A stretch of DNA of 64,000 nucleotides from Paracyclopina nana (taxonomy: Eukaryota; Arthropoda; Copepoda; Cyclopoida; Cyclopettidae). Both the position numbers and the translations under genes were made by a program. The notes under the pieces were generated by a model. It worked only from the letters and a program-made list of their open reading frames with translations. It was not told the origin of the DNA and did no database searches. How positions within the stretch are numbered: the stretch's first letter is position 1; each line of letters begins with the position of its first letter. The stretch spans positions 1,748,501-1,812,500 of the forward strand of contig JAGUCH010000002.1 of the NCBI GenBank assembly GCA_019096065.1. Reading direction: 5' to 3'. Positions 26,567-64,000 of this stretch are shown here, in pieces.

Positions 26567-29069
26567 ATGCCTTCGTGCAGTGGCCGCAACCTTTTGTATG
26601 GCTTTATGGCCTTGCAGCTGCTTTCTACTCTGGAGCGGCAGGTGTTCGATTTCATGGGCTACATGTGGGTGCCCATACTGGCCAACTTCCTGCACACTGT
26701 GATTGTCATCCTGGGTATCTTTGGGGTGTACCAGTACACCTCAAAGCACCTGATGACCTACCTGAGTTGGAACTTCATTTGGAGCGCCTTCAACGCCTTC
26801 ATCATCTGCTACTACCTCGAGGTGGGCGGCCTTGATACCAAGACTGACCTTTTGGCCTTTGGCACCGGATCCTACTCCTGGTGGATGGTGAATGGCCTTG
26901 GCTGCCAGGCTGAATTTTTCCCAGCCAATGAGACAGCTCTGGACTTGGCCTTTGGCGAGCCCCAGCCCAAAACGTACCGGCCCCTGCGGCCTTCCAAGGT
27001 CGTGGGTTGCCTCATTAGCTTCGAATATGTCGAAGTGATCCATGCTGGCATCCAAATTGGCCTTGCTGTGATGGCCGTGATTTTTGGCGTGCCTTTGGCT
27101 CATTATCTAGTGACTGTTGTAGAGCCCAAGTACCGCAAGGCCAAAAAAGGCCAGAAAAGGCCGCTGGAGAACGGCCACGCCATGTACAGCATTGAGTACA
27201 GCCAGGTGAACGAGACGATCAACAATACGCAAGAAACGGACTTTTATGCCAATGTTGAAGGCCAGGCTGTGGCCAATGGGGAAGTAAGGCCGCATATGAC
27301 CCCGCGAAGGGTGAAAAGGCGCTCGTATACAAGGTCGAGTGCGCGGTCAGCTTCGAAAGCCTTGAAAAAGGAGACATCAACGCATCGGCAAAGTGGTCGG
27401 AGTGTGCGGAGCGCAGCCGGAGCCTTGGGAGCCTCCATGAAGGCCACAGCCAAGGTTGTCAATCCTGTGACAAGGCTGATGCAGGAGACTGACACGCATC
27501 CTGTCATCAACGACTCTTCGACCTCCAATGACGATGGGAGGACCAACGTTGAAAGGTACCAATTAATCTGCGTACTAATTAGGTGTCCAAGTTTGCCGAC
27601 TCGGATCAGTTGAGCAGATTTCACTAGTTGGAAAAATAATAGTTTTATTATGGCAAAAATATCTGAGATTTTCCAGCATTTTGTACATTTTACCATTTTA
27701 CTAAAACGTATCCATAAACAATAATTTTGTGCTTTTTGCAGGTATGGACAGGTTAATCCAGGGTACGTGAGTTCAAGGCCGAATTCGCTGTACAATGGGC
27801 CTCAAAGTATCACTGACTACGAGGCCTCAAGGCCACCCTCCGCCCTCACTTCTTACTCCAATTTTCACGGCCAACGAAGGCCAATGGCAGGAGCCCCTGG
27901 CCCAAATCAGCTGACGCAGGAGTCGTTTAACCAGTACAACAATCATGCCGGAGGCGCAGCCGCCATTGGAGCTACTGCTAATCATCATAACGCGAGCTTT
28001 GATGATGATTTGCCACCTCCACCTCCACCTTTGTCCAGCTCACCTTCTTTTGCACATCGTCAGGTGCAAAACGAGAACGACACTGACAACAACTCCAGCA
28101 TCACCACAGACACCACAGCACAAGTATATTCATCTTTTTAATTAGGCCCATTAATTGTCTGCTAATGTTTAACATGATTTTTACAGATGCCTGTGCCACT
28201 GCAGAGGCAAATACCAAATACGAGGCGTAACGAGTACGTCAATATGCCAGTCAATTCGCATCCAATGATGCCAGCGCAAAAAAATAGCAATAATGGCAAC
28301 CATGACTTACAAAGCCTCTCTTCAGCCAGTCCAGACTTGTCAAATCACATTCCAGCTCACAACTATGCCAACATGCCAGTCAACAAAAACCCCATGCCTC
28401 CACCCAGGAGCGAGGATACTGGCAGAACTAGGCCTCAATTTAGCAAGGCATATCAGCAGCAAGAAGAGCCTCTGGGCTATAATGACACCCAAACGTTACG
28501 AGCTGACCAAAGGCTCTCTTTCCAACAGAACAAGGACATTCTGTTAAGTGATGAAACGGACGCTTCCAAGCCTCAAAATCAGCAGTATAGACAGGTGCAT
28601 CTGGACTATGGCATGATGTCTCAAAGTCAGCCCAAAGCTGAGCCTCAGCAGGCTTCCAGGGTGCCAACAGGCCATATGAGGAGAGACCGAGCTAGTTTGA
28701 GAGCCAAGCATAGGCAAGAGATGGAGCAAGCCAAAAATCAGGTAAAATTTAAAAGACTACCCAAAAGTTGCGGAAACGGCCACCAGGCGAGAAATTGGCG
28801 CTTCTATAGAGCCTCATAGTAAAAGATCTATTTTTTTCGCGCAGAAAATGCAACAACCAATCCGGAGTAACTACGGAAATCCAGAAGAGGACGAATATGG
28901 GTTTTCCAAGGGCGGCGGAGCTGAAGCCTTGCCCAATGGCCACAGTGGGCATAACGGCAACAACGATGACAAGTGGTATTTGCACGACAGCATGCGGCCC
29001 GTGGGCGCGCCCAGCCACGGTGGCAATTGCAAGTGTTACAGATGCCAGAGGAAGCTCACGGCAATTTAG
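26567..29069 (+). CDS. NKAIN: NKAIN, Na,K-ATPase-interacting membrane protein
   Basis: A four-pass membrane protein that binds the beta subunit of the sodium pump and is enriched in the nervous system. Exons are 26567-27555, 27742-28123, 28187-28741 and 28845-29069, giving 716 residues. The conserved core is residues 1-210, with LLSTLERQVFDFMGYMW, PILANFLHTVIVILGIFG and NAFIICYYLEVGGL all visible. A long low-complexity tail follows, with a poly-Pro run, two NMPVN motifs and a C-terminal Cys pair (CKCYRC). Vertebrate NKAINs stop near 210 residues; the long tail is an arthropod trait. The whole four-helix core sits in one exon. A polyadenylation signal lies at 29117-29122, only a few bases from that of the convergent vein-like gene. 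Confidence 0.92.
27573..27630 (-). repeat. Short interspersed repeat, copy 4 (shortened)
   Basis: It lies in NKAIN intron 1. It keeps both ends and the GCCGACTCGGAT core half, but the central part is deleted relative to other copies. Confidence 0.65.
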
Positions 29070-32039: not shown

Positions 32040-32654
32040 CTTGGGCTCTATCCCATGTTCTCATATTTTTTCCGATACACTTTGGGAAAAAGCACGTGTG
32101 CGCACCTCTTCGAACCTGGTAAAAGATAGCAGTAGGCCACTACTATATTATACACATTATATACGTTGTGTGTGCATGCGCAACTCGACGTACAAAATGC
32201 GCTCTCGCCAAAATCATGACAAAAGCTCGTACACTGTGGTGACGCGACACGCGCAATTTTCTTCGACTGCTCCGATTTGAAGATGCGCGAAAAAGCACTC
32301 AATATTTAGGTGACTTTTGTGGATACACGTCATTAAGGAGATAAGAAATCATGAATGTATCGAAGAATTCGCACCTGAAAGTGGGACAACTACAGCGTTG
32401 CGAAATAGCGATAAAAACGATTTTTACTGCGCGTTCTCAGAATTCGCAGGGGGATTAGAAGAAGCAATTTTCCTTGTAGGTCACTCATTGCTAATTGCCA
32501 TAGATTTAGCCCTAAAAATTGAATTCGTCTTTTTCGCATTCAAATCGTTGTAAATATGGCCAAAAATGGATGAAAACCAAGCTGATTGTGATATTTTAGG
32601 GAAGATTCATTCTTAGTGTAGAGATGGAAACGTTTTATTGTGAGCTTGTCTCGG

Positions 32655-33027
32655 CAGAGGGCGCGCGCGAACGCTTTTTAAAATTAGGAAAAACTCATGC
32701 CTAATTTGCTTCTCTGAAAGAATGCAGTTCATTTATTACCTTTGAATGGATGATACAATACATTGCATTTATCCAAATTTACTAAAGAATGCCATCTTCT
32801 TTGCTCAAAAATGCGTTATATACATTTGCTAAGGTTTTTACTCTATTTTGAATTCAAAGGACTTTTAAGATGCAATCATTGCAATTTTTGTAAATACTTT
32901 GTAGTATAGCTATCATTCTCTTGGCATTCCTACAGATCATATTAATCTTTCGCCTTTTACTAAAGATTACTGTGTAAGAGTGCATCAACATGAGGTACAT
33001 AGATTTATGTTGCTTTCTCTTGAAAGC
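32655..33027 (+). ncRNA. Structured RNA-like unit, copy 1 of 4
   Basis: It starts at a CAGAGGGCG box (32655) and ends at a small hairpin. Helix A pairs 32924-32934 (GCATTCCTACA) with 32973-32983 (TGTAAGAGTGC), with one mismatch. Inside it an 8-bp helix B (32943-32950 with 32962-32969) closes the invariant 11-nt loop CGCCTTTTACT. Helix C pairs 33012-33017 with 33022-33027. Sequence outside these islands is not conserved between copies. I do not recognise the family. Transcription is not shown by the sequence. Confidence 0.6.
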
Positions 33028-33060
33028 TTTATTCAAAATTAAAGCGTTAAGCGTTATCCT

Positions 33061-33784
33061 TATACAGTCTGTCCTGTAGATTTCTTTACACTTTGAAATC
33101 AATAGTTTGTGTTACAAATTCGGGAAATATTAGACACAATGGATATCATTGGAAAGCTCGAATCTTTTGCCATCTTTGTTTGCTTCAATGGATAAAAGAA
33201 ATTAAAAGTAAAAAAATGAGAAAACTTAATTTTCCTGAGGTACCCTTAATTTTTCTCCCAAAAAAGAAAATTTGCCAAAACCGGCTATAATTGACCAAAT
33301 TTTCAGCTAAGCTAATCCTGGCTATTTTTTTGACATTTTTTCATGAAAAAAAATCTTGCAGCATTGTGCTGGCTCATCAGAAAGGTGGATGATTGGAAAG
33401 GATATTTTTCAGTAAAAAAAAAGACAATAAGGCCACTGACTACTAAAAAAGTTTCAAAATTAGTTTTTTAAACTGGAGCACTGGATTTTTTGTTTTTGAA
33501 GATCAAATGTTTAACCAATTTTATGTGAAATTAAAAAAATAATTTTTTGTGAATGTGACTTTTCATCAAAAAAATCAGTGAAAATGGGCGTGAATTTGGA
33601 GTAACTATCAATTTTGTGGTCTAAATCAGAATTTGAATTAATACTTTTTATAAATCTCAAAACTAAAAAAGATGGCTTAAGTTTCAAGCTTTCCAACAGT
33701 ATCCATTGCGTCGAGTGTTTCCAGAAGTTTTAACACAAAATTTTGATTTCAAAGTGTACAGAAATCTACGGGACAGACTGTATA
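33061..33784. mobile_element. Foldback element with long terminal inverted repeats (Tc1-like ends)
   Basis: The ends are TATACAGTCTGTCC and its complement. Arms of about 200 bp are alignable: 33061-33100 against 33745-33784 is nearly perfect, and similarity continues inward through the word AATGGAT and beyond. CAGT ends flanked by TA suggest a Tc1/mariner-derived non-autonomous element. No transposase frame is present. Confidence 0.75.
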
Positions 33785-33910
33785 GTAATAGTTTAAAGTG
33801 TTTACTATTAAATTGATATTTGTAGGCGTATTACGGCCAATGCAAGTATTTAGAAGCAATAGATAATTTTTGAATTTTTGATTACACATTTAGGTGATCG
33901 CAAGTTCGCA

Positions 33911-34443
33911 ACCCTAACCTAAATGAATTCTACCACCCCAACATGTATATATTTTCTGAAAGGCCTTTCATGATGGTTTCAGAGGTGCAAATGCCTAATT
34001 CAATTTCAGGTGCACTAAATAAGAATTTGAAAAACTGCTGCCCCTTCACCAGCTCATTTTTTTGAGAAAAATTGTGCAAAATAGATCAACCCTAAAATTC
34101 GAAACTGCAGAAAAAATCCACTGTTCATGCGATACCTGTTAATTTTGGTATTAACTAGGTGACATCACTCTACTATACTTTTTGCAACATTTTTTATCTT
34201 GTTACACAATGTATGAAGTGAATTTTTGCCAAAAAATTGCTTGGTCCCTTTGAACTTTCAATTTTTTAAGGGGTCATTGAAGTAACATATTTCAAAATAA
34301 CTGAAGGTTTAGGCAGGAGTTGTTTTATTTAAATCTTATGTAGTGATAGACGCCGGAAATTGATTTAACAATTTTATGTATCCTTAGAGGTTTCAAAAAA
34401 ATATTAGTGGTTGGGGTGGTCGAATTCATCTCTGTTAGGGTGG
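33911..34443. mobile_element. Foldback element 2
   Basis: Inverted arms ACCCTAAC..ATGAATTC.ACCACCCCAAC at 33911-33944 and its complement at about 34410-34443, with weaker similarity outside. Element borders are uncertain. No coding capacity. Confidence 0.55.
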
Positions 34444-34628
34444 CTACCACCACATGCATATTGTGTGTTATAATAGCAAAAAGTAAAAAGTTCATCAATA
34501 CTAGAAATATAATGTATACTCAAATTTTGCCAATTGCAATTTAATTGACTCTGGGTGAGTACTGAGTTGAGTAAGGTTGTTGGATGTCTTTAAAACAAAT
34601 CGAAACGATTTTTGCGAGTCAATCTTGA

Positions 34629-34988
34629 CAGAGGGCGTGCGCGACAATTTTATTGGAGATTGCTGAAATTCAGAGCAAAGTTAAATCAAAAAGTAAAAAC
34701 TTTGCTTAACTATGAAGAACTTAAATCGCCAGAAAGTAAACATTATTTCAACATTGAATATTTAAAGTCCCCATCTACAATGAAAGTTTTTTCACGAAAA
34801 AAAACTTTCTTTTTCTTCAAAAGCTTTTTGGAATGCTGTAAGCGAACAATCACCTAAGTTTGAAATTATCTCTTATAATCAGAGCATTCTTACAAAAACA
34901 TATAAATCTTTCGCCTTTTACTAAAGATTTCTGTGTAAGAGTGTACTATCATGAATTAAGTAATTTATTCGGCTCCTTTCTTCGGAGC
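34629..34988 (+). ncRNA. Structured RNA-like unit, copy 2 of 4
   Basis: The CAGAGGGCG box is at 34629. Helix A is 34884-34894 with 34934-34944 (complete, with two G-U pairs). Helix B is 34904-34911 with 34923-34930 around the invariant loop. Helix C is 34972-34976 with 34984-34988 (GCTCC/GGAGC). The distance from helix B to helix C is 42 nt, as in the other copies. Confidence 0.6.
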
Positions 34989-35246
34989 TTTAAGCCAATT
35001 TCCCTAGTAACACATCGAATGTTTGTATATACACAACTCTCATTTAACAATGTTAACTGTATTAAATGAAATTGTACATAAAATTCAGATTAATGCAATA
35101 AATGCATAAATGGCAAATAAAGACGATCTAAAAGACTAGACATGGTTCACATGCTTATAATATCTGATATTTTGTCAAAATATCAGAGCGAAATACTGAG
35201 AAACTGAGAATTTAGATTCTGTTATTGGATGGCTTTTGGTACCAAA

Positions 35247-35875
35247 ACACAGTGGGGTCATCTCTTTGCGAAAAGTGGCGTTTGGCGGCAAAGTGAAAAA
35301 GTCTAGTGCTAAATTCCCTAGGCCTTTCAAACGTAGATTAAAGGCCTAGTTTTAAATTTTTTGGCTTGAATTGGTGATTTTTCATTGTAAAGTGCTTTAA
35401 AACACGGTTTTGGCAGCTATTACTGAGTTTGTTATTGTTTTGAAAATTCAAAAAGGGCCACTGAAGCCGGGAAAATGGGCTCAGTGAAAACTGTGATATC
35501 TCAAAATGGCGCCAAAATGTGCAAATAAAACTTTGTCATAATGATTTCAGGTAATCAACTGAATGTTTCATGCAAAAATTGTTGAGGAATTTTGAGGAGT
35601 AACGAGCAAATCAATATTTGAAAATGATCAAAAATAGCTTAACTTCAGGATCCCATTTTCGCGGAAAAATTGAGCGAATCGCAAATTTCCATTTATAGTA
35701 ATCATAATTTGTAATGTTACCAAAATTTAATTCTAATCCCACAATCATGATTGAATTGTTTTCGGCCTCGAAATTTCCAATTTTAAACAACCGCGTTTTC
35801 AGAGAGTTTGAATGATGCTGCCATTTCGCGAGATTTCCAAACGCCACTTTTTGCAACGGGATGTCCCCACTGTGC
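35247..35875. mobile_element. Foldback element 3
   Basis: Ends read CACAGTGGGG and CCCCACTGTG. Inverted arms of about 45 bp include AAAGTGGCGTTTGG, and weaker similarity runs further in. It lies between RNA-like units 2 and 3. Confidence 0.65.
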
Positions 35876-36857
35876 AAAAGACCGAATCCGAAGAAAAATT
35901 CAACAAAATTATTTTTGAAGTACCTGATATTTGCAAATATCTGCATAATATCGCTCAATATTTTGATCATAATATCGCAGGTGAACCAGGCCCTGCTTAT
36001 AATCACCCATATTTTCAAGCTTTTCACTGTAGAAACATAAATCATTCTGGTGGTCAATTTAATCAATTGCCGCTGCCCGTAGTCACGTGACAAGTTTCGC
36101 GCGAGAGTTTTTCCACAAATAATCGCGCCATCTAAGGAAAAAGTTCACCCCTTTATTGGTTTATTACACCTATGACAGCGGCTTTACATGAAAAGTGTCG
36201 CTTGGGCTCACGATGAGTCAATAATTCAAAACCCATTCAGTATAGGGAACAGCAGTTAGAATTGTGAATTATAGAGGGCGCTAGCATCGGCTAGTAAGCT
36301 CGCCGAATTCATCGCGCTCGTGTTCTTTCCCGCTCATTGATTGGCTGAAAACAGATTAAAAAAGTGCTTTAAAGTAACTCTGGGATTTTTCCCTACACAA
36401 TTATGATTTATGAAAAACTTAAGAAAAGAAAAAGTATGAAGAAAGAACTGATTAATTTTTGACGTTTTGGAAGTAAATTCTTAGTTCTACCATAAACTAA
36501 GTATAGGGTACGCAGACCGGAAAATACTAGACAAAATTGCTTACAGAGGGTGCAGCGATGGATTATCCCCCTTATTGTTATTCCCCTAATAACTTCAATT
36601 AAAATTGTGATTAGAAAATTGAATTTTAACCCAACTATTTTTGCATTTTTAGAGTTTTATTTTACGATAATATAACTCATAAAATTCTAGCCTGGCATTT
36701 GGTAAGCTTGAGCCCCAATTTAAAATTTGCAAGAAAGGGTATACCATTTCTAATTTCTTTAAGCGATCATGCTTGTTAGCTCATATTCTCACGAATCATA
36801 AGTGAAATTCAATTAATCAAAACGTTTTACTAGCGGTTTCGTGCAAAGTTTTCTTGA

Positions 36858-37216
36858 CAGAGGGCGTGCTGAGCCAGATTGGTGTGTTTACCATCAAGTT
36901 TGAGACAAATTAAGAAAGTAAGTTGCAGTTAGTTATTCTTTTCGGGATTAAACAATTTCTATGAAAATAGCCATTGATCATAATGGGTGCCTTAAAAGGC
37001 CTCAACTCTATTAGCAGACTTTTATGGAGTCAAAGTCAGTTTCTTATCAAAAATTAATTAAAAAAATACCTTGTAAAATATTTCACAATTCGAAATATTT
37101 TATTATCATCATGGCATTCTGACATAACAAATATATCTTTCGCCTTTTACTAAAGATATCTGTGTTAGAGTGCGTCTTCATGAATTGGTGTATTTTTACA
37201 GCTTCAAAGTGGAAGC
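36858..37216 (+). ncRNA. Structured RNA-like unit, copy 3 of 4
   Basis: The CAGAGGGCG box is at 36858. Helix A is 37114-37124 (GCATTCTGACA) with 37163-37173 (TGTTAGAGTGC): a T-A pair of other copies is here G-U. Helix B is 37133-37140 with 37152-37159 (ATATCTTT/AAAGATAT): an A-T pair is here T-A, a compensatory change. The loop is unchanged. Helix C is GCTTC/GAAGC at 37201-37205 and 37212-37216. Confidence 0.6.
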
Positions 37217-37351
37217 ATTTATTAATGAAACTATACTCTATTGATTCTTTTGTATATTTGGTTAGAATCATGGTGATATCATTGACAATTGACAACCATT
37301 TTACTTAAAAATATCCCAATATTGTTTTCTTTTTATCGATTGAAACGGTCT

Positions 37352-38062
37352 CAGGGCAAAGGTCCCCAAGGGCAAATGTCCCCGAGGGCAAAAGTCCCCA
37401 AGGGCAAAAGTCCCCAAGGGCAACAGTCCCCGAGGGCAAAAGTCCCCAAGGGCAAAAGTCCCTAGGGGCAAAAGTCCCTAAGGGCAAAAGTCCTTGGGGG
37501 CAAAAGTCCCCAAGGGCAAAAGTCCCTAGGGGCAAAAGTCCCTAAGGGCAAAAGTCCTTGGGGGCAAAAGTCCCCAAGGGCAAAAGTCCCCAAGGGCAAA
37601 AGTCCCCAAGGGCAAAAGTCCCCAAGGGCAAAAGTCCCCAAGGGCAAAAGTCCCCAAGGGCAAAAGTCCCCAAGGGCAAAAGTCCCCAAGGGCAAAAGTC
37701 CCCAAGGGCAAAAGTCCCCAAGGGCAAAAGTCCCCAAGGGCAAAAGTCCCCAAGGGCAAAAGTCCCCAAGGGCAAAAGTCCCCAAGGGCAAAAGTCCCCA
37801 AGGGCAAAAGTCCCCAAGGGCAAAAGTCCCCAAGGGCAAAAGTCCCCAAGGGCAAAAGTCCCCAAGGGCAAAAGTCCCCAAGGGCAAAAGTCCCCAAGGG
37901 CAATAGTCCTCAAGGGCAAAAGTCCTAAGGGCAAAAGTATCTAAGGGCAAAAGTGTCCATGGGCAAAAGTTTCAAGGGCAAAAGTCTCCATGGGCAAAAG
38001 TTCAATGGGCAAAAGTACCAAGGGCAAACGGCCAAGGGCAAACAGCCAAGGGCAAAAGGGAC
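37352..38062. repeat. 16-bp minisatellite, about 44 copies
   Basis: The unit is CAAGGGCAAAAGTCCC. The centre (about 37567-37890) is some twenty near-identical copies, and both edges are degenerate. On the left a 64-bp set of four variant units is duplicated (37441-37566). Long open frames on both strands through the array are artefacts of its repeat length. Similar sequence (CGATTGAAAC.GT.CTC) flanks the array on both sides. Confidence 0.95.
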
Positions 38063-38562
38063 GCAGCCGATTGAAACAGTTCTCGATTTGATGAGTTGTG
38101 TATGTATTACTTAAGAAAGAGATATTACGAGGAATTTAGATGACACAAACCTTTTAATGGAATTGCTTCGATTTTTGGCTATAATTTCCTAGTGTCTTCT
38201 TAAAACTGAAGATTTCTTAGCTTAAAACATGAGTAATTTGCTATCATTGGAAGACATTCATGAAACCTGGCAGATGTAAGAGAACTTTTTGCCACAAACT
38301 TAGAAGTTCATTTTTAATTTGGAGTTGCGCGTAGAACATGTAGGTGATTTTGAAATCAAAATTACTTATGGCTTTATTTTTATCATTTTTGCAAATACTG
38401 CCAAGTTTTCAGGAAAAATGCGAAAAACGCGATTCCCCTCAGCTACGCCGCTGCGTTGAGACTGGCTCACTTTTCACAATAGGGGGCGCTGGTTACCCTC
38501 GACGACAGGCACTATAAACCTTAGCGCCAACAAAATAAACGTTTTTTGAGAGCCTGCCTTCG

Positions 38563-38910
38563 CAGAGGGCGTGCGCGTCAAATTATTTTAATAATTTACA
38601 ATCATTAGGAGTAAAATCAATTTTAATTGCAACCTTATCTCAACTAAGGAAAGAGTAAATTGTCATTAAAAAAGCTAGCAAATCCTATTTCATGCCCTTG
38701 TCATCTAAATACTAACACTTACTATGGCATACAAATTTGTTTTTCAAAGGCTTTTTAAATTATCGTTATCTTTGAAATCCTAAATTAAAATTTACGTCTC
38801 ATATCAATGCATTCTTACTTAACATTTAAATCTTTCGCCTTTTACTAAAGATTTCTGAGTGTGAGTGCTGAAGTGATGTAATTTTATTTCTGCAGCTCCT
38901 TCATGGAGCT
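38563..38910 (+). ncRNA. Structured RNA-like unit, copy 4 of 4
   Basis: The CAGAGGGCG box is at 38563. Helix A is 38809-38819 (GCATTCTTACT) with 38858-38868 (AGTGTGAGTGC). Its terminal A-T pair in other copies is here T-A, a compensatory change, and there is one T-T mismatch. Helix B is 38828-38835 with 38847-38854 around the invariant loop. Helix C is AGCTCC/GGAGCT at 38894-38899 and 38905-38910. Confidence 0.6.
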
Positions 38911-39560
38911 TTATAAAATAGTTTTTTAACTTTTGTTGTTTAAATAATTCTAATGATTTATAAGTTTAAGTCCTACGAATTAAATTATAATAAGAATCGA
39001 TAATGAAAAAAGTTCTTTGAAATTATTATCAGTTATGTAGTAAATGTCTTACTAGTTTGTTGACTGAGTCAATATATGATTACTTCAAAATTGGGCACAT
39101 AGCAGAGTAACAGTAAAAAGCAACCTTGAAATCTTACACCTATGGTAATCAGGATCGCGTTTTAGCTCGACAATTCACAAGGCCAAACCGGCTTCGACCT
39201 GTTTTTCAGGTGGGCAGAGAATCCTGAGGGCGATCATTAAGCGATCCAGGAAGACTACAACCATCACCCTCGGGCCAGGAATTAAGGTTGTTGCTACCAA
39301 ACCAGGAAGTAATGAGACCATTGGCGATTTAGAAATGATTTTGGACTGTTTTATTATTCTTTTTTTCCTTTGTAGCAGGACGTCTGGAAACTATCAAACA
39401 CTTCCAAATGTCTACCTCGTTTTTTGCGTGGGTTTTTTCCATAAGAGAAAATAGGTTTAAAGACATACAAGACATAAAAAAGCCAGGCTTAAAGCATGAA
39501 TCACAATTCTGGCATAAAGGGTGCCAGATTTCAACAATACGTGCAGATACTGCATGCATT

Positions 39561-42591: not shown

Positions 42592-45067
42592 TCACGACAT
42601 AATTTTCAGCTCTCTCTTCTTGAGTGGCCTCTTGCTCATGTACTTGTGCAAAATGTCTGAAACTCGAGATTTGTGCTCGAAAAGCTCCAGAGCGTGATCC
42701 TTGGATTCCTTGATTTGATCCTGAAATATGAATGCGAAAAGATATGAGTCAAAGTACGAATATCGCATTTTTCACTTCCCTCCTCACCTGAATCACTTTG
42801 CTCCGTTGAAGGTTGGCTTTGATTAGTTCGTGAATTTTGCCCACGTCCTTGGTGAGCTCATGCAGCGAGTGCTTGTCCAGCCTTTTTTGGAGGCCAGACA
42901 GCCGAGAGGTCAGCTCAGTCTCCACGTCAATTATGTCCTCCATTTGGGATGTCAGGTGGTAAATTTTCCAGCCATTGATTTTCTGAAATCACCCTGGGGA
43001 AATATTCGAAATTTGGACAGAAGAAGGCAGGTGTTTACCTGGTTTATATGCTTTTGGTTGGCTAGCTCGTTTACTGTCGGCCTTTGCTCCTCGCGAGGCC
43101 GCACATCGGAATGGCGAAGGAAGTGGTTGTGCCTCGACTTCCACGTGTGCCTATAGCTGTTCAGCAGGGACATGTGCGGCATGTCTTTGATGTAGTTCGA
43201 TTTGGGAGGCGAATCAGGCAAGTTGAGCTCCGCCGCGGCCGCATGCAACGGGAGTTGAGGCTTGGCCGTCTTGCGTTTCAGCTCCTTTTGCTGGTCTTCC
43301 CACTGCTGATCCGAGCCCGGTCGCACAGAGGTCGAAGTGAGCGTTTGCTTACGAGGCTTTTTCCGAGGACTGGGCTGCAGGTTGCTCTGCTCTTCTCCAC
43401 CTGACAAGTTGGCTCGATCCGCTGCCATTCCAGGGGAAGATGTGGCAGACAGCGTAGTGGATCCGGATGAGGAGCTGCCAGCATCGTCATTTCGACTGTC
43501 AGGTCGAGGAGGTGGCGTCTCTGAAATGGCAATGGATGCAACTATCTCATTTTTATCATATCAAGTTTACCTGGCATATTGACATCCCGATCCCCTTCAC
43601 GTCTCCTCAAAATACTGGGACGACTGGGAGAGCTGATCTTGTCATCGAGGCTTTGTGGAATAGGCTGGGGAATGCTGACGATCCTGGCCGATCCTTGGCC
43701 CCCAATCGACAAGGTCTTGGGAGCTGACGAGGAAGGGCCCAAAAGAGGGGCTTTAGTCAGATTGAGAGAGGACACCGGGCTGGACAAGTTGATGGCAACC
43801 GATTGGGTGGAAGGTGGAGGCCTGGCCAGATAGACAGGCACCGAGGTGTTGATGGCAGATCCCACAGTGGTCGTGATGGTGACCACGTTCTGCTGCGGAC
43901 ATACCCTTGCCACAGGAATAGCCTGGCTTGCAGGCTTGGCGGCGCTCGAGATGGGCGGGGCCGTTCCGTATGGCAAGGAAATGGATCGTTGCGACGAGTT
44001 GACAGGAATGGAAGTCTTTTGGATCGTCACTCCCTGAATATTGGTCGAGGGAGGGCCGGATGTGGCCGACCCAGGAACGCTGATGAGTTTACCTCCGCCT
44101 GTGATTGCTCGGGCTCCCATGGGGGCCAATGGCACATTGATTGAGCCCTGCGTGGTGAGCTGGAGAGGAGCGGGCAACACGGTCATCCTGGACGTAGCGG
44201 GCATCCCTCCACTTATCCGCATCGAGGGCTGGCCGCCAAGCGTGGGCTTCATTTGGTTGGAGGTGTTGATGGTGACCTGCTTGTAAATGCTGGGCTGGGC
44301 CGAGGATGAGGTAATGGGCAGAGGATTGCCCCCTACTTTCGGGCTTGAGCCGGGAGACTGCACCAGAGTCACTCGAACCGCGTCGGAGAAGGCTGTTGTC
44401 GTTCCGCTGGAAGAGGGGCGAAATGTCGCTGTGGCGGGACGAGTTGTCGCGCCTGAAGGGCCCCGAATTGTTGCCGAGGACATGGGCACCAGCTGAACAG
44501 GACCCGACTGGCCTGGATTGGCACCCGTTGTCAGCCTTGAGATATTCAGTAATATTTATATTTTATGAATATATATAATAGCAGTTGTTGTTACCTGATA
44601 CTTCCGCCTGGCGTCAGGGAAGGCCCGGTGCCGACAATTCCAGTTGTCGTCTTTATGTTTAGCGGGTAAGAGGTGGGAGGCCGAATAATTGTGGTGGCCG
44701 TGGCTCTCGGCATATTTCCGGGGAGAGGCGTGGCCTTGGAAGGCGGGTTGGATGTCAAAACGGTGACCTTGTTCATTACCGCTAGGTTCACTTGCTGGCC
44801 AACAGACGAGGCTTTAGGCACTGCCAAAAGGGGTGGCCGGCTGGGGCCCCTGATTTGAACAGGATTAGTGCTGAGAATGGCCACGCCTCCTGGCCGTGGT
44901 TGGTTGAGCGATGAGGGCCTCACGCTTGGGATGCGAAGAGGCTGTTTGGCTAAATCAACCGGCTGACTTTGCTCGTGCACATTCGAAACCTGAGAGTTGG
45001 TGGGCGTGGCCCCAGACGTGGACATGTTGATGGGCGTGCCGCCCGATCCTGGGAGGTTGGAGGCCAT
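42592..45067 (-). CDS. SAP130: SAP130, Sin3A-associated protein
   Basis: A subunit of the Sin3/HDAC co-repressor complex in the nucleus. Exons are 45067-44595, 44535-43571, 43520-43039, 42982-42788 and 42720-42592, giving 747 residues (human 1048). The first about 500 residues are low-complexity Ser/Thr/Pro/Val-rich sequence. The conserved C-terminal domain is clear: SPRKKPRKQ, then SLLNSYRHTWKSRHNHFLRH, RPTVNELANQKHINQKINGW, KIYHLTSQMEDIIDVE, and LIKANLQRSKVIQDQIKES. This region binds Sin3A and mediates repression. It starts 340 bp from the divergent ATXN7L3 gene, so the two chromatin genes probably share a promoter. Confidence 0.92.
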
Positions 45068-45407: not shown

Positions 45408-46520
45408 ATGGAGAAACGAAGGCGGTCGGGTGGTGCGTCCGTTGCAATGACAAATCACGAGATGGAGACTTTAAGCAAACAAATCTACGAGGATTGCTTG
45501 GATGAGCTCATTCTCGGCGTCGCCTTTGATGTGCACAGATCAGTGAAAACGGGACTGTTTGCGGTTTTGGAGGTTGACTCCCCATCATTCAAGGACCAAG
45601 AATCGTCGTCAGCACTGACTCAAAACTTGGGCGTGGATGTGTTCGGCCAAGTCATATCGACAATGTTGGGCGTCCCAGCTCTGAAGAAACAGCCAGAATG
45701 CGTGTGCCCGAATTGTCAACGTAACTTGGCAGCATCCAGATTTGCTCCTCACTTGGAAAAGTGCATGGGCATGGGTCGCAATTCCAGCAGACTGGCCAGC
45801 CGAAGGTTGGCCACGAGCGGCAAAGAGGCCAACTACAGAGAGTCGGGCATGGACGAGGACGAGGATGATGAGGAGTGGATCGAACCTACCAAAGTGGCAT
45901 TGTCTAACAGGAGGAGGCATCGCGACAAAAATTCCCCCAGAAGAACCAAGACTTCCTCTCAAGTCGCCAAGTTGGGCTACACCAGCAAAAATGGAGGAGA
46001 CATATTTTTGGTGACAGCTTCAGATGGCTCGATTACTCCTCCTGCAAGCTATGACGTGCTGAGCATTGACGAGCGGTCTAATTTATTGGCATCCATTTGC
46101 GGCGTGATCACATCAGCTTCGAAAAAGATTTGTACACGGACCACGAGGTGTCCCATGCACACTGATGCACAACGAAGAGAGGTCCGCATTAGGTGGCTCT
46201 CGAACGAAGAAGAAACTCATGTAGACATAGACAGGTATATTTTTTCATAGAAGAAATCTCATTATTTCAAGCTATAACTCAATATGTATTTTGGCAGCTT
46301 TACTGAGGGAGACACAGCTGCCCTTCGAGAAAGCCTTGCTCAATTGTCAGGAGCTAGTTCCCCTGCGGAGTCGGTTGTGTCGACTAGTTCGAATCCCAGC
46401 GCAACATCTTCAATCAGAGGTGGCAGAAGGGAAAAATCACGTCGAGGCAAAAAGAAGGGCCATTCGGGGTCCTCTAAGAGCGCCAGTCGTGGTTCGACTC
46501 CTCCCTTAATGGCAGACTGA
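45408..46520 (+). CDS. ATXN7L3: ATXN7L3/Sgf11, SAGA deubiquitinase module subunit
   Basis: This subunit activates the Nonstop/USP22 deubiquitinase that removes ubiquitin from H2B. Exons are 45408-46234 and 46298-46520, giving 349 residues, close to human ATXN7L3 (about 350). Seen: an N-terminal helix (IYEDCLDELILGVAFDVHRS) that anchors to the module; the Sgf11 zinc finger CVCPNCQRNLAASRFAPHLE, followed by KCMGMGRNSSR, at about residues 100-128; an acidic linker; and an SCA7 domain with CGVITSASKKICTR and RCPMHTDAQRR near residues 225-260. The C-terminus is Ser-rich and basic. Its stop codon is only 20 bp from that of the convergent chitin-binding gene. Its polyadenylation signal (46608-46613) lies inside the other gene's coding exon. 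Confidence 0.93.
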
Positions 46521-46540: not shown

Positions 46541-47203
46541 TTAAGGGGTATCCGAGGAGAGGCTTGTGACGTTGCTTCGCGTGAATACTTTCAGTGATGA
46601 AATATCAAATAAACCGTTTGAGTTCAGAAAAGCCCTTTTTCTTTGTGGCTTGTGTGGTGGATTTTTAAGCAAAGAGCTTCTTTTTGCTGTTTTGACCTCG
46701 ATTTGATTGTCCACTGGCTTTATGTAGATGATCTTGGGATTTGCACTTTTTTCATCATTCTTTGCGATGAAGGAAGTAGTAGTTGGAGCAACAGTAGTCG
46801 TTGTTTTAACTTCCTTCAGAGCAACTTTCTTTGGCAGCAATTCTGCTATGTGAAATGGGCTGCAAGTTGGCCTCACATGGATCACAATTGAGGGCCAATC
46901 GCAAACCTTTGTAATTGGGTTGAACATCAAAAATGGCCCGCAATGTTTGAGCGATACTCTAAAATGCCCCCAACAATGGAAGAAAGTGTGACAGTTGCTT
47001 GGATCCGGTATATGATCATGCCCACTAAAACAGATGGGTCTTTGCTCCCACATTGCAAACTTGCATCTTACACAATCTAAAAAAATATACGACAGGATGC
47101 TTTTCACGCCTTTAAACTCCAAAAGAAAAGTGAACATTAATTATCTTGTTTGCTCACCTTTAATTAAATAAACAATCAGAGCGAACAGTTGTGCGCACCT
47201 CAT
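46541..47203 (-). CDS. Secreted protein with one chitin-binding type 2 domain
   Basis: A peritrophin-A (CBM14) protein, likely extracellular in cuticle or gut lining. Exons are 47203-47158 and 47076-46541, giving 193 residues. A short hydrophobic start (MRCAQLFALIVYLIKG) serves as signal peptide. One domain follows with the six-Cys spacing ICFSGHDHIPDPSNCHTFFH, CWGHFRVSLKHCG, F-N-P-x-x-x-VCDW and a final Cys. The remaining about 110 residues are Thr-rich then basic, without Cys. The single domain plus tail differs from multi-domain peritrophins. The exon 1 model rests on phase and signal-peptide logic. Confidence 0.8.
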
Positions 47204-47990: not shown

Positions 47991-50900
47991 TTATTCATCA
48001 TACAATGGCGTAGAATCAAATTGACCCCGTGGAGTGCGACGTGGAGTCCGCTGACCTCCAGGAGTATTTTGAGCAGATTGCGGAGTGTTGCGGGCCGATC
48101 CGTGCTGCTGCTGGGGAGTCGAGCTTCCCATATAACCTTGGGTACCAAAGGCAATTTAGAAAGAATGCCAAAAATTAATTAAATCGTTATTTACCTCTGG
48201 GTGTCTGTCCACCTTGATCAGCTCGCGGAGCCGTCCGTTTTGCTCGGCCTCCAGCCCAACCGTCAATCATCACATTTTGCCAGGCATCACCGCCCTCATG
48301 ACGAGGCCGGCCTCCAGCAGGACTCCGGCCATATCCTCCAGGACTTGGTTGAGGCGGAGGGTAAGATCTTCTGCCCTGCATTCCTCCGGAAGAAGGCACA
48401 GGTGGTGGGCCCATGTGAGCTCTTGGCGTACTGGAAGGCCCCGGGGTGTTGTAGGGGGTCAAAATGGGCGTCTGCCCACTGGGTGTGTAGGGAGTGTTGA
48501 TATTGTAGCCTCCTCCAGGTGTGACACCGCCTCCATAAGGAGTGGCAGCGGCAGCCACGCTCATCGCCCCTGGAGTGATTCCGCCTGGAGTGGGCGTGGC
48601 CCCCAAGAAAGGCGTGCGCTGCGAAGAGCTGTTCCGGGGAGTGACGGGTGTGCCTGGAATGGGGTCTCTGAAATGCTCTTTGAACCACTTGAAGAGGCTT
48701 GACAAGTTGTCGAAGGTCTGCTGGCGGAACCGAAAGCCCTCGGGGAGGACAGTGATGAACTCGTGCCTGGCCTTCGTTCTGGGCATGTAGGAAAGCATGA
48801 ACTTTCCGGGCAAGTCTTTGGAGGCGGAGACGAAGTAGTGGATCTTTCCGGGATGAGCACGTTTCTCTTCTCGTAGTAGGTTTTCAGCAATGTCTCGCTT
48901 GCCACCTTGAGTGTCCCTGATAAAATATTCCATTTAAAACTGAATTTTAAATTTGTATTCTTTTAAAAACACTTACTTGTAATACTTAAAGTTCAAGATG
49001 TCTCGTGCGTGACTCGCCATGGGATTGATGTGCCTGGCGATGATCTCGTCGAGATCCTCAAACTCCTCATTGCCAATCCACAAAGACTGGCCAAGGCTGA
49101 AGGCGTTCACCTTTTTCTTCTCGAGGACATTGATGTGCTGGTGAATGCCTTCCCAGGCCACCTTCCAGGTCACCGTTAAATGGTCTGGTCCCTTGGACGA
49201 GGGCCGGATAATGACATCGCCTTGCTGGTACTCATTGTCCATGGGGTCGGATTTGTCCTTTTCAACGTTGTCCAGCAGCTTCTCAGCCCTGTGGTAGTCA
49301 ATGTTCTTGAAGTTGGGGTGAACGATGACACGTTTGACATAGGACTGCTTGGCCTGGGCCTTTTTCCTTTCAGAGTCATGGATGCGCTTGTCTTCGGCCT
49401 CCAAGTCGTGGTCGTAAAAGGCATCTTTGCGAGGCTTCCATTCGTTATCTTTGTCATCCAAAGCGGAGCTCTTGCAAATGGCTTCCACTGAAAATCTCTC
49501 GGGGTTGATTTTGACAATCCTGCAGTAAATGGACTGGTTCCTGTGAACTCGCTCCTCCGGGTTGATGACAGCCGAGTCTGACAAATTCTTGATGGGAATA
49601 AACCCGGACACTCCGTTGTCCAGCCGGATCTTCACACCCACAGCTTTGCCAGGACAGGTGCCTAAACATCAAAATTCAAATAACACAATTAAAAAAACCA
49701 TTTGATATTTAGAGCTGCCTTTTTAATACCTGCATCAAAGTGATTCCACACTTCAGTCAATTCCGGGAAGTCATCTTGGCCACAAAAAGGGCACTGCCAA
49801 GCATTGCCTTCGCCTCCTTTGCGAAGGGGAGCAGCCTTGTCCAACTCCTCGCCTTGAGGCTTCTTGTAGGCAAACCCAGTCACTGAGGCCATGACGAGCT
49901 TGCCCACGTAGAACGTTTGGGGCGTTTCTTTGGTGATCATGTTGAAGATTTCCTCTGCGGAGGGATCGACAAAAGGCTCCCTAAAGTCCTTGTACATGTC
50001 CATGAGCTCAGATCGAATGTCGTACAAGGTGTTGAGCCGCTTGCCATATCCTTGCCTTTCCAGCTCGGTGGCAAATGCCTCGAGGTCAAGCTCGCCCAGT
50101 TTCTCCGGCTCCTGGAGAATCTCCTCCAGAGCATTGGCAGGATTGCCCTCATCCTCGTCAAGCTCGAGAGCGTCCACAGCCATCTTCTTGGCCCAGTCGT
50201 AGGCCTCATAATGGATCCTGGAGCCATCCAGGACCTCCACGTACACCTCGGAATCGCCCAGGGCCGCAGTGTTGATCTTGATGAAGCCGGAGCAATTGAC
50301 CAGGACTTTGGAGCCCATGTGACAAGCGATGACCAGCTGAGATCGGTTTTCCAGTCGTTGGCTCGACTTCATTTGCCGGAGTGTTTTCAGCAGAGCTGCT
50401 CCTTTGCGAGGACCAAGACCGCCAATAAATTGCACAAGGTTGGACATGTGGCCGTGCGCCACACATTCATTGATGTCCACGCCCACCTCGCACACCCTGT
50501 TGATGAACTCGAGATTGAGGCCTTCGAGGAGTTCGTCCTCGCTTAGTAAATCTTGCAGTGGGTTGTACCGAAGGCACAGAATCTCCTTTTCTGGCCCGGT
50601 GAGCTGGGAGAATTCTATGAGAGGGTCTTGCATCCGACGAGCTAGCGACACAGCTTGCCTCAAAACTGGTGGGAAATCGCTGAAATCCTGCTGAGCCCTC
50701 GTGGAATTGGCATACACGCGTGCCAAGTTGTCATTCAAAAACGTCACTTTGATCTAAAAAAAGAAAAAACCTTCCAGTAAGGAAAATTTAAGGGATTTTG
50801 CAAATTTCACCTTGGGAAATTGCTCCTCGTTGATCAGGTCGGTGACAATGACCTCGACGTCCTCCTTGATGGCCAGAGCTGCCCTGTCACCGGTGCCAAT

Positions 50901-53900
50901 GACAATACAATGCGGCCTCTTCTTCGAGATGAACCCCTTGAGCAGCTCCATGTCCGACTCCTTCTCCTCGCGCTCAGTTTCATTCCAAGAGTTTTTCCGC
51001 TTGAGAATGTGCCTCAATGTGATGTAGCCGGACACCTCGCCCTCGGGGGAAATGATGACAGCATAGGCAGCCACGTTGAGGTCGTTCTCGTACATAATGG
51101 CCATAATTCGGCAGCCTTCTTTGCTGCCCCAATCGTCCTCGTCCTCTTCCTCGAAATCCACGGTGTATTTCCCAATTTTCAGCCAGTCATACAGGGTGGA
51201 TCGACAGGCCATGATCACGCCGTCCTTGGCCTCACGAGTGAGCCTATTTTTCAGCTCCGTTCTCAGCATCGGGTAGAGAATCTTGTTGAATGCAATCTCC
51301 AGACACTCCTTGTGCAAGTTGTTCCACTCTTGCGCCACTTTGTGGTAGGCATCGTAGGTGTAGTAACGGAGGGCGTCCTGCAAAAAGGTCTTGCCTTTGG
51401 GAAACGTTCCGATCTCCTTGGCGATCTCAATGTCGAGCAACTTCTGCTCCTCGGCTTGAGTCAACTTCAGCCATTGGTCTCCAGAGAGGGAAGAGATGGG
51501 CTTGTCGGTGACATATTTCAAGGGATAGCAGTCGTGAGACTCGTCGATCTCCTTCAACCCTTTCTTCGTGGGCCTGATATTGATTGTGGCCCTTTCGTAC
51601 ACTGCTTCCCTGACCACGGATCGCACCTGAAATGCACAAAAATTCACAAATTCTTGCAATGACACGTGACTATTAGCATATCAATCAAAAATGTACATTT
51701 TCCTTTGTGCTACATTTTCAAGACCAGAACCTTGCAAAGAAACACTAAATTATCTCAATTTTAGTTTGATTGCTCAAAATTGTCGTTCATAAAAAAACCA
51801 TGATGGCGAAAATGCACAGAGAGAGGGTTTCTCGAGATAAGTCTAGATTAGGTCGGATTGAGCAGAAGTAAAAAACCCACGAGGCAGTACAAAGTACGCA
51901 TCAATCTGTGCATGGAACAAAATACCCGGTGCTCAATCAGAGTCGTACCCAACTCCCAACCAAGTTTCCAGAAGACCCTGTAGACGTTGTAAAATGCATG
52001 CAAGAATTGAAACCAAGATTGAACCAAGGAAGTCTAGTGCGAACCAGAACGCGCGCCGCACAACTATAAAGCTTTTTGCTTTTGCCCTCAATCCCTCAGA
52101 TCTACTCACGAAGCCACCAGAGAAAGGTACATCATAAAAAACAAACACTTCCTTTTCAAGCTTATAATTAGACTGTTTTCTCTTAGAAAATGAAGTTCCT
52201 CGCAGTGCTGATGGCAATCTTTGCCATAATCGCCGTCATGGCCTCCCAAGTTGCCGAGGCCAGACCAGGCTCCACCTATGTGCACAAGCCTAACAAAGGA
52301 TTGAAGAATCTCAGAAAGCACCTGACCAAGCCAAGACAAGGTGGAGCACCAGAATGACTAAGATCAAGGCTACAATAAATGCTTTGTCTTGCCCTAATTA
52401 TACCCATTAAAAACTATTGATATTCCACACAAAAAGTCACCAACAACAATCCCAAAGAAACCTGCTCAATAAAAGAAAAATCGAACGTACCTTCGGGTCA
52501 TGCGCAATTTCGTAGGCCACCAAGCGTTTCACGTGGTCAAGGACCAAGGACGCCGACTCTGCTCCAAGTTTGGGATTCTTCTCGGCATATTCCTCAGCGA
52601 GCTTCAACGGTTCCTTGTCGTCCTTGTCGATCCTCTTCAAATCGATCTTTTGGTAGCCATCTTGGAGATTCTCTCCAAATTCCCAAGGCTTCAGGCCGAA
52701 TTCATCAGCCATGCCTTAAAAACCCGAAAAGGATTGAATAGATGCACACTTTGCAAATATAATTTTTTCAGTCACCTGCGATGCCTAGACGCTTGCAAAA
52801 AGATACTGGATCGTTACGATTGGCATGCTTGAGGATTTCCTCGTCAATATCCTCCTCTTCCTCCTCCTCATCCTCCTCTTCGTCCTCATTATCTTCCTCG
52901 GCCTCGTCGTCATCCTCGGCCTCGTGATCGGTCACTTCGACCTCCTCACCTTCGTCGTTGGTGACAATTTTCGTCTTCTTCTTCTTGGCCGACTTCTTGG
53001 CAATCTTTTTCAGCAGCTTTTTCGTTTCCCGCTCCTCTTTGCGTTTCTTCACGAGCATCGTTTTGATGGCGTCTCGGTCACGGCTGTAGTAGAGCTTGAA
53101 CAGCTGCTCCATATCTTTCAGCTCCTCGAAATTGGTGACAGCATCGATTCTTTCGAGGTCACGGGCCTCGACCAGCCTCACGTCCTTTGGAATGTCCGCA
53201 TTGATGTTGGAGCAAATCGTCTCTTCTTGGTAAGACTTGCAGTGCTCGTACAGCTTTCGCAAGGACTTTTTGCGAGCCTGCAACTTGCACCACTCCTCGT
53301 CAAAGTAGTAGACGCGCCACAAATCGTTGATTTTGAGCTCGGGCTGCACATACTCCTTGCGGTAAAAGTTGATGAAGGGCACCTCAAAGAACTCGCAGCG
53401 GATGTTGTAGAGGGCATTGCGAATCTTCTCCACCACAGCCTCTTTCTTGGAGGTCCACGAGGCGATTTCACGGTCACTGTACAAATCTTGCTTCGAAATT
53501 GTGGGCTACAGAATGGTAAGTGTTATTTTAATCGGATTTTGCCTAATAAAGCCTCACCTTGGTGAATTTGTTGAAAATCCACTCGGCTTCCCGGTCGAGT
53601 TCCTCTTGGTCATTTTCATCGGGCTTCGTCACTGGGAAGTTTCGTAATTGCATCCGCTCAGGAATGTCAGTGTTTCGGATCTCGTTGTCGTGATCGGTGA
53701 AATGTCGCATTTCAAGCTCGGACGGCTCATAGAGCTCAAAAATGGTCTTTGCCCGTTTCTTCTTCTTCTTTTTGAACTTGGCAGCCTCCTCGTCATCCTC
53801 ATCCTCTTCCTCATAATCCTCCTCGGCCTCGTCGTCATCATACTGCTCAAACTCGCCATAGTCGAATTTCACGCCGAAAATGTCCTCGGCGAGCTGACGC

Positions 53901-57390: not shown

Positions 57391-64000
<6,610 letters not shown>

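Follow-up and report, generated by a model that had tools for sequence, protein, structure and literature searches.

Four U5 genes in tandem

The window analysed here is a stretch of 64,000 nucleotides (nt) from the genome of the copepod Paracyclopina nana (contig JAGUCH010000002.1, hereafter C2, positions 1748501-1812500). It carries four U5 spliceosomal small nuclear RNA (snRNA) genes in tandem, each preceded by a short element near -240 (Table 1). All four units gave full-length matches to Rfam family RF00020 on the forward strand, above the gathering score of 40, and with E-values of 4.8e-7 to 5.7e-11 these are not chance matches. Loop I (CGCCUUUUACU) stands on an 8-bp stem in 4/4 units, an Sm-like AUUUNU block precedes the last hairpin in 4/4, and this 3' hairpin is GC-ended and of at least 5 bp in each. 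The units resemble RF00020 in length, loop I, stem I, Sm-like site, 3' stem-loop and in forming a multi-gene family. They differ from it in having CUG after the loop I stem, where the Rfam consensus has CCG.

The initial annotation had described four units on one strand, at 32655, 34629, 36858 and 38563, as old paralogues of a structured RNA under selection for structure. Much of this description was borne out. The word CAGAGGGCG was found at each position, 269, 255, 256 and 246 nt ahead of helix A in copies 1-4, the loop CGCCTTTTACT is identical in all four units, and the structured RNA does lie on the forward strand. The helices are kept by two-sided changes, which upholds the reading as old paralogues under structural selection. 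In the alignment, the outermost and the second pair of helix B each change between T-A and A-T, and a pair of helix C (the 3' hairpin) changes between T-A and C-G. The terminal pair of helix A is A-T in copies 1-3 and T-A in copy 4 (read off the sequences, as the aligner placed a gap there), and a further helix A pair varies T-A/G-T/T-G. Helix A pairs overall as the 11-bp helix proposed, with the exception of pair 7, where copy 1 has C.A and copy 4 has T.T, neither of which pairs.

Other parts of the description had to be revised. The 3' hairpin, said to lie 41-43 nt further on, is by our own count about 24-28 nt past the end of the helix A 3' arm. The units share more than short islands, the RNAs being 70-76% identical in pairwise comparison (as aligned, 115-119 nt), with AACGTTT and TCAAAG boxes in common upstream too. 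The layout was said to belong to no known family, and comparison with Rfam gave RF00020, whose loop I, 3' stem-loop and Sm-like site (AUUUNU) the units have. In U5 terms, loop I corresponds to the invariant loop and its stem to helix B; helix A forms the lower portion of stem I, and the final hairpin the 3' stem-loop. The RNAs themselves are therefore of an already known and ordinary kind. Nor can CAGAGGGCG be part of the RNA, because it lies outside the U5 model, starting 239-262 nt upstream of the RNA 5' end that the model gives, and because variants of it precede U1, U2, U3 and U4 genes.

The genome searched comprises 92 Mb in 10 contigs, in which the snRNA counts are lower bounds, with at least 11 U5 (above the cut-off), at least 7 U1, at least 9 U2, at least 4 U4, at least 1 U6 and at least 3 U3 matches. 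Mixed clusters occur on C2 near 9.13 Mb (U2-U5-U1) and on C8 near 1.895 Mb (U5-U2-U5-U4), and the divergent neighbours U5_L003 and U2_L017 have one intergenic stretch in common. Loop I is present in 11/11 U5 copies; in L030 its stem carries one C.A mismatch. The CUG after the loop I stem is found in 7/11 U5 genes, including the window's four, and the CCG of the Rfam consensus in 4/11. The four CCG genes grouped together in a FastTree analysis of the 11 U5 genes (support 0.995), and the window's four formed no well-supported group of their own. On sequence grounds the window's four are a divergent subtype. Diverse U5 paralogues are usual. In Drosophila seven U5 paralogues can be told apart; they are more diverse than the other snRNAs of the fly and switch during development, according to extracts of one report (PMC4291461). 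As far as those extracts go, the copepod genes share with them the diversity and a conserved 3' stem-loop structure.

One further U5 copy, L031 (C5:4452452-4452567), has no recognisable 3' stem-loop and an aberrant core, AGATGGAGA, and is possibly a decaying gene. No genome match was found for U12, U4atac or U6atac; the method's own control genomes were also silent, so absence is not shown and loss of the minor spliceosome is a lead only. The U5 loop word had 0 matches in viral contigs.

Elements upstream of the snRNA genes

The word CAGAGGGCG is the version in the U5 cluster of a motif, roughly CCGCNAGRKGGCGC, which lies in one orientation near -240 of most of the RNA polymerase II (Pol II) snRNA genes found. 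De novo discovery in the -330..-5 region of 30 U1/U2/U4/U5 genes, with no prior motif, gave cCGcnAGAtGGCGC as the best 14-mer, with a log-likelihood ratio (LLR) of 181.6. Six control regions taken from these loci reached 57.2-61.4, and two letter shuffles 44.9 and 48.8. The near-duplicate U5_L030 was excluded from motif discovery (30/31 genes) and included in the slot counts (31/31). On the forward strand of the slot -262..-228, AGRKGGCGC was found with at most one mismatch in 24/31 U1/U2/U4/U5 genes compared with 48/4030 control slots, and with at most two in 29/31 compared with 274/4030. This slot had been chosen after the positions were viewed, and therefore the U3 genes, used for neither motif nor slot, were tested. 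They have the core in 2/3 at one mismatch or fewer and in 3/3 at two or fewer (controls 5/372 and 20/372). With all classes pooled, the core lies in the slot in 26/34 genes at one mismatch or fewer. At two or fewer, 32/34 genes have it there, and the fixed upstream position of an snRNA distal sequence element is thus found in these 32. The core starts at -240.6 on average, with a standard deviation (SD) of 5.8 over the 32 slot matches, a spread bounded by the slot itself.

The longer word CAGAGGGCGTGCGCG has four exact copies in the genome, all before U5 genes, at 248, 239, 246 and 246 nt. Allowing up to two mismatches it is not commoner than its reversed control genome-wide (156 vs 273). A site like the AGGGGGCGC core, seen before copy 4, also occurs at -328 of the U5 genes L004 and L030. 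The U1, U2, U3, U4 and U5 genes are not homologous to each other, and among the upstream regions of the 31 genes no same-strand pair exceeds 50% ungapped identity except U5 L004/L030 (0.91). Descent of a common flank is therefore not the cause of the motif.

A second element, of TCAAAG type, lies at about -60, which we take to be the expected place of the proximal sequence element (PSE) read by SNAPc. Its LLR in the 30 genes was 52.4, compared with 28.9-42.2 in 13 other slots (300 random starts for the target slot, 200 for the control slots). The best site falls at -62..-59 in 25/30 genes, several of them with low scores, and in the U3 genes, too, TCAAAG or CCAAAG is present at about -60.

Further upstream, AACGWTT occurs at -330..-230 in 14/31 genes, compared with 0-2/31 in each of 21 control bins, and in 0/3 U3 genes. 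Helical phasing between this box and the CTCF-like core was considered and is not supported (Rayleigh p about 0.02 for 14 genes, and 0.33 without the four U5 genes with 26-nt spacing). The octamer, ZNF143 and E-box motifs were rejected as the distal element, none being enriched in the 34 genes, with the bare word ACTACA (below) as an exception. The octamer was found exactly in 0/34 (controls 0-2) and with one mismatch in 7/34 (controls 3-14), and a ZNF143-like motif in 1/34 (controls 0-5).

Two other words were seen upstream. ACTACA, on either strand at -320..-180, occurs in 8/34 genes compared with 0-4 in control bins; the carriers are U5_L002, U5_L003, U5_L031, U2_L017, U2_L024, U4_L026, U3_L042 and U3_L043, with U5_L003 and U2_L017 representing one intergenic stretch. 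The word GAGGTTGCG is found upstream of the U1 genes L012, L014 and L015 and of the U6 gene L029 near -70, and is perhaps a variant element.

Table 1. Positions of features in the window; upstream distances are relative to the gene start
Feature	Position	Strand	Remarks
Distal element, copy 1 (CAGAGGGCG), CTCF-like	32655..32663	+	AGAGGGCGC core at -261
Distal element, copy 2, CTCF-like	34629..34637	+	core at -247; exact CAGAGGGCGTGCGCG
Distal element, copy 3, CTCF-like	36858..36866	+	core at -248
Distal element, copy 4, CTCF-like	38563..38571	+	core at -238; exact CAGAGGGCGTGCGCG, 15-mer
Second CTCF-like core before copy 4 (AGGGGGCGC)	38481..38489	+	at -321
AACGTTT box, copy 1	32629..32635	+	
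AACGATT box, copy 2	34604..34610	+	
AACGTTT box, copy 3	36821..36827	+	
AACGTTT box, copy 4	38538..38544	+	
PSE-like element, copy 1 (ATTCAAAGGA)	32852..32861	+	at -65
PSE-like element, copy 2 (CTTCAAAAGC)	34815..34824	+	at -62
PSE-like element, copy 3 (TATCAAAAAT)	37045..37054	+	at -62
PSE-like element, copy 4 (TTTCAAAGGC)	38742..38751	+	at -60
U5 snRNA gene, copy 1	32917..33028	+	RF00020, 75.3 bits, model 1-117
Helix A, U5 copy 1	32924-32934/32973-32983	+	
Loop I, U5 copy 1	32951-32961	+	
U5 snRNA gene, copy 2	34877..34990	+	RF00020, 73.1 bits; loop I 34912-34922
U5 snRNA gene, copy 3	37107..37218	+	RF00020, 71.4 bits; loop I 37141-37151
U5 snRNA gene, copy 4	38802..38911	+	RF00020, 58.1 bits; loop I 38836-38846
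NKAIN open reading frame (ORF)	26567-27613		
SAP130 C-terminus ORF	42952-43428	-	
Sgf11 ORF	45408-46250	+	SCA7 match slightly below cut-off
CBM_14 ORF	46541-47137	-	
SPT6-domain ORFs	48187-53484	-	

A sugar transporter match is also found among the ORFs of the window. Taken together, these ORF matches point to an animal, and most likely to an invertebrate one. Between U5 copies 3 and 4, at 37353-38058, lies an array in which a 16-bp unit, AGGGCAAAAGTCCCCA, is repeated some 45 times.

CTCF as the candidate reader of the distal element

For human CTCF, the part of the source consulted (PMC6746451) gives the consensus CCASYAGRKGGCRS. The snRNA distal motif has the same core and the same variable positions, A/G and then G/T. 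The de novo motif also recovers a CCGC half, and the class consensus agrees with CCASYAGRKGGCRS. Four U4 sites match it at 12-13/14 positions. The U5 sites of the window match YAGRKGGCR in 4/4, with a poor CCAS half and T as last base in copies 2-4; copy 1 alone of the four reached 12/14.

A CTCF orthologue is encoded at C3:4997170-4997949. Its fingers are 56% identical to those of human CTCF (query residues 46-289), and it scored 269.7 bits, compared with 155.9 for the next C2H2 match (181 matches). The stretches which we take to be the recognition helices of CTCF fingers 3-5 differ little from the human ones. Many C2H2 zinc-finger genes lie close together at C5:6.8-7.6 Mb, among the CTCF-finger matches listed. 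Genome-wide, AGRKGGCGC occurs 5502 times compared with 549 for the reversed pattern, a roughly tenfold excess. An apparent run of forward-strand sites is not claimed, as it is probably a listing artefact (whole counts 2725 and 2777). Ten cores of this type lie in the window, of which five extend to GGCGCCASTG or nearly so, the sites at 58106 and 62100 being among these five.

Several points weigh against reading the distal element as a CTCF site of snRNA promoters. For the 31 genes the slot had been fixed with their positions in view, so that the held-out test comprises the three U3 genes only, and two of these (L041 and L043) hold an equally good core elsewhere in -420..-10. Two of the 34 genes (U1_L014 and U2_L024) have no core in the slot, and six match at two mismatches only (five of the 31, and one U3). 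A better core lies outside the slot in 5/31 genes (L004, L030, L032, U2_L018 and U1_L014). The reverse strand of the slot has matches in 3/31 genes at one mismatch or fewer and in 7/31 at two or fewer; this is above control, in part because GGCGCC, present in some sites, is palindromic. No such core lies upstream of the one U6 gene found. U5_L003 and U2_L017 have their intergenic stretch in common, and the evidence comes from one genome. Of the six U5 genes carrying CAGAGGGCG, five end the core in T and not C, and agreement with the CCAS half is poor. The count of 5502 is raised by repeats, the sites listed on C1 including a run about 312 bp apart and the window sites 58106 and 62100 having similar flanks. 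Finally, another zinc finger could bind the sequence.

This last point leads to the most serious of the alternatives, which we nevertheless consider unlikely, that the element is read by another factor of similar motif, for example YY1 or any of the numerous C2H2 proteins which the genome encodes. We take the YY1 motif to be AANATGGCG, with AT needed at the two variable positions. AT stands there in 8/32 slot matches, which then read ATGGC or close to it, C5 has many C2H2 genes among the matches listed, and U1_L012, U1_L014, U1_L015 and U6 carry a GAGGTTGCG-like variant. However, 24/32 matches have AG, GT, GA or GG where YY1 would need AT, of which 22 are consistent with the R-K variation in the consensus for CTCF. 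The CCGC half of the de novo motif and the conserved stretches of fingers 3-5 also argue for CTCF over another factor.

A lesser chance is given to the sites being insulators or terminators of the neighbouring units rather than promoter elements. CTCF is found at the termination region of human U2, in the portions of two studies consulted (PMC4802788; PMC5493778), and every site of the tandem U5 cluster is at the same time intergenic. On the other hand, the distance is kept from the downstream gene start (the mean and slot-bounded SD given above, 32 matches), the end of the upstream gene is a variable 1.3-1.9 kb away in the window, and the site is present too at genes without another listed snRNA gene nearby.

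That all four are U5 pseudogenes, or members of a repeat family moved along with mobile DNA, seems very improbable. Their scores of 58-75 bits, compared with 83-91 in the three best genomic copies, and their spacing of 1.7-2.2 kb would suit such an origin. Yet two-sided changes keep the helices, the promoter boxes are kept in otherwise dissimilar upstream sequence (ungapped identity of 50% or less for all pairs in the window), and loop I and AUUUNU are intact in 4/4 copies, the genome having 11 U5 matches as a lower bound. The new structured RNA family proposed in the initial annotation, real as the structure and the two-sided changes are, is ruled out by the full-length RF00020 matches above gathering score in 4/4 units, and by the identity of its invariant loop as loop I of U5.

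A two-part promoter and its meaning

The four tandem U5 genes, of a divergent subtype, thus probably have a two-part Pol II promoter, with SNAPc at the proximal and CTCF at the distal element. Pol II would transcribe each gene from this snRNA promoter, SNAPc reading the TCAAAG element at about -60 and CTCF the element near -240. The core lies about 180 bp from the PSE-like element, which leaves space for one nucleosome, and CTCF has a nucleosome-positioning role, cited in PMC5493778 (seen in extract). From this spacing and this property of CTCF we infer that it replaces the distal factors of vertebrates, Oct-1 and ZNF143. CTCF would hold one nucleosome between both elements and open the promoter, and it might also insulate each U5 gene from its neighbours. 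Binding of CTCF and SNAPc, the nucleosome step and transcription of the genes are all predictions from sequence.

The human distal sequence element combines an octamer, bound by POU2F1, with a ZNF143 site, according to the part of the source consulted (PMC3499247). On that partial account, the copepod element is like it in its enhancer-type position upstream of the PSE and in standing before several snRNA classes, and differs in having a CTCF-like motif, with an exact octamer in 0/34 genes and a ZNF143-like motif in 1/34. In humans CTCF acts downstream, at U2 snRNA termination, as extracts of four papers describe (PMC4802788; PMC5493778; PMC9138887; PMC3874203). To that extent the pairing of CTCF with snRNA genes is common to both systems, with the difference that the human site is downstream and the candidate site here lies near -240 upstream, in several classes. 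No report of a CTCF-like distal element of snRNA genes was found by title or abstract among the matches listed, most subscription papers being outside the scope of the search.

What is unexpected at this locus is the promoter, traced from the CAGAGGGCG island of the initial annotation, and not the RNA, which is ordinary. To our knowledge, little has been learned about which factors activate snRNA genes in organisms other than vertebrates. With slightly more belief than doubt, we propose that CTCF may be a general activator of Pol II snRNA promoters (U1, U2, U3, U4 and U5) in this lineage, binding with constant spacing and a single orientation at the position held by Oct-1 and ZNF143 in vertebrates. 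CTCF is an architectural and insulator protein, and the main architectural protein of bilaterians. If the proposal is true, this protein would be tied to the supply of the splicing machinery. It would also suggest that the factors reading the distal element have been swapped in animal evolution, while its position has been retained.

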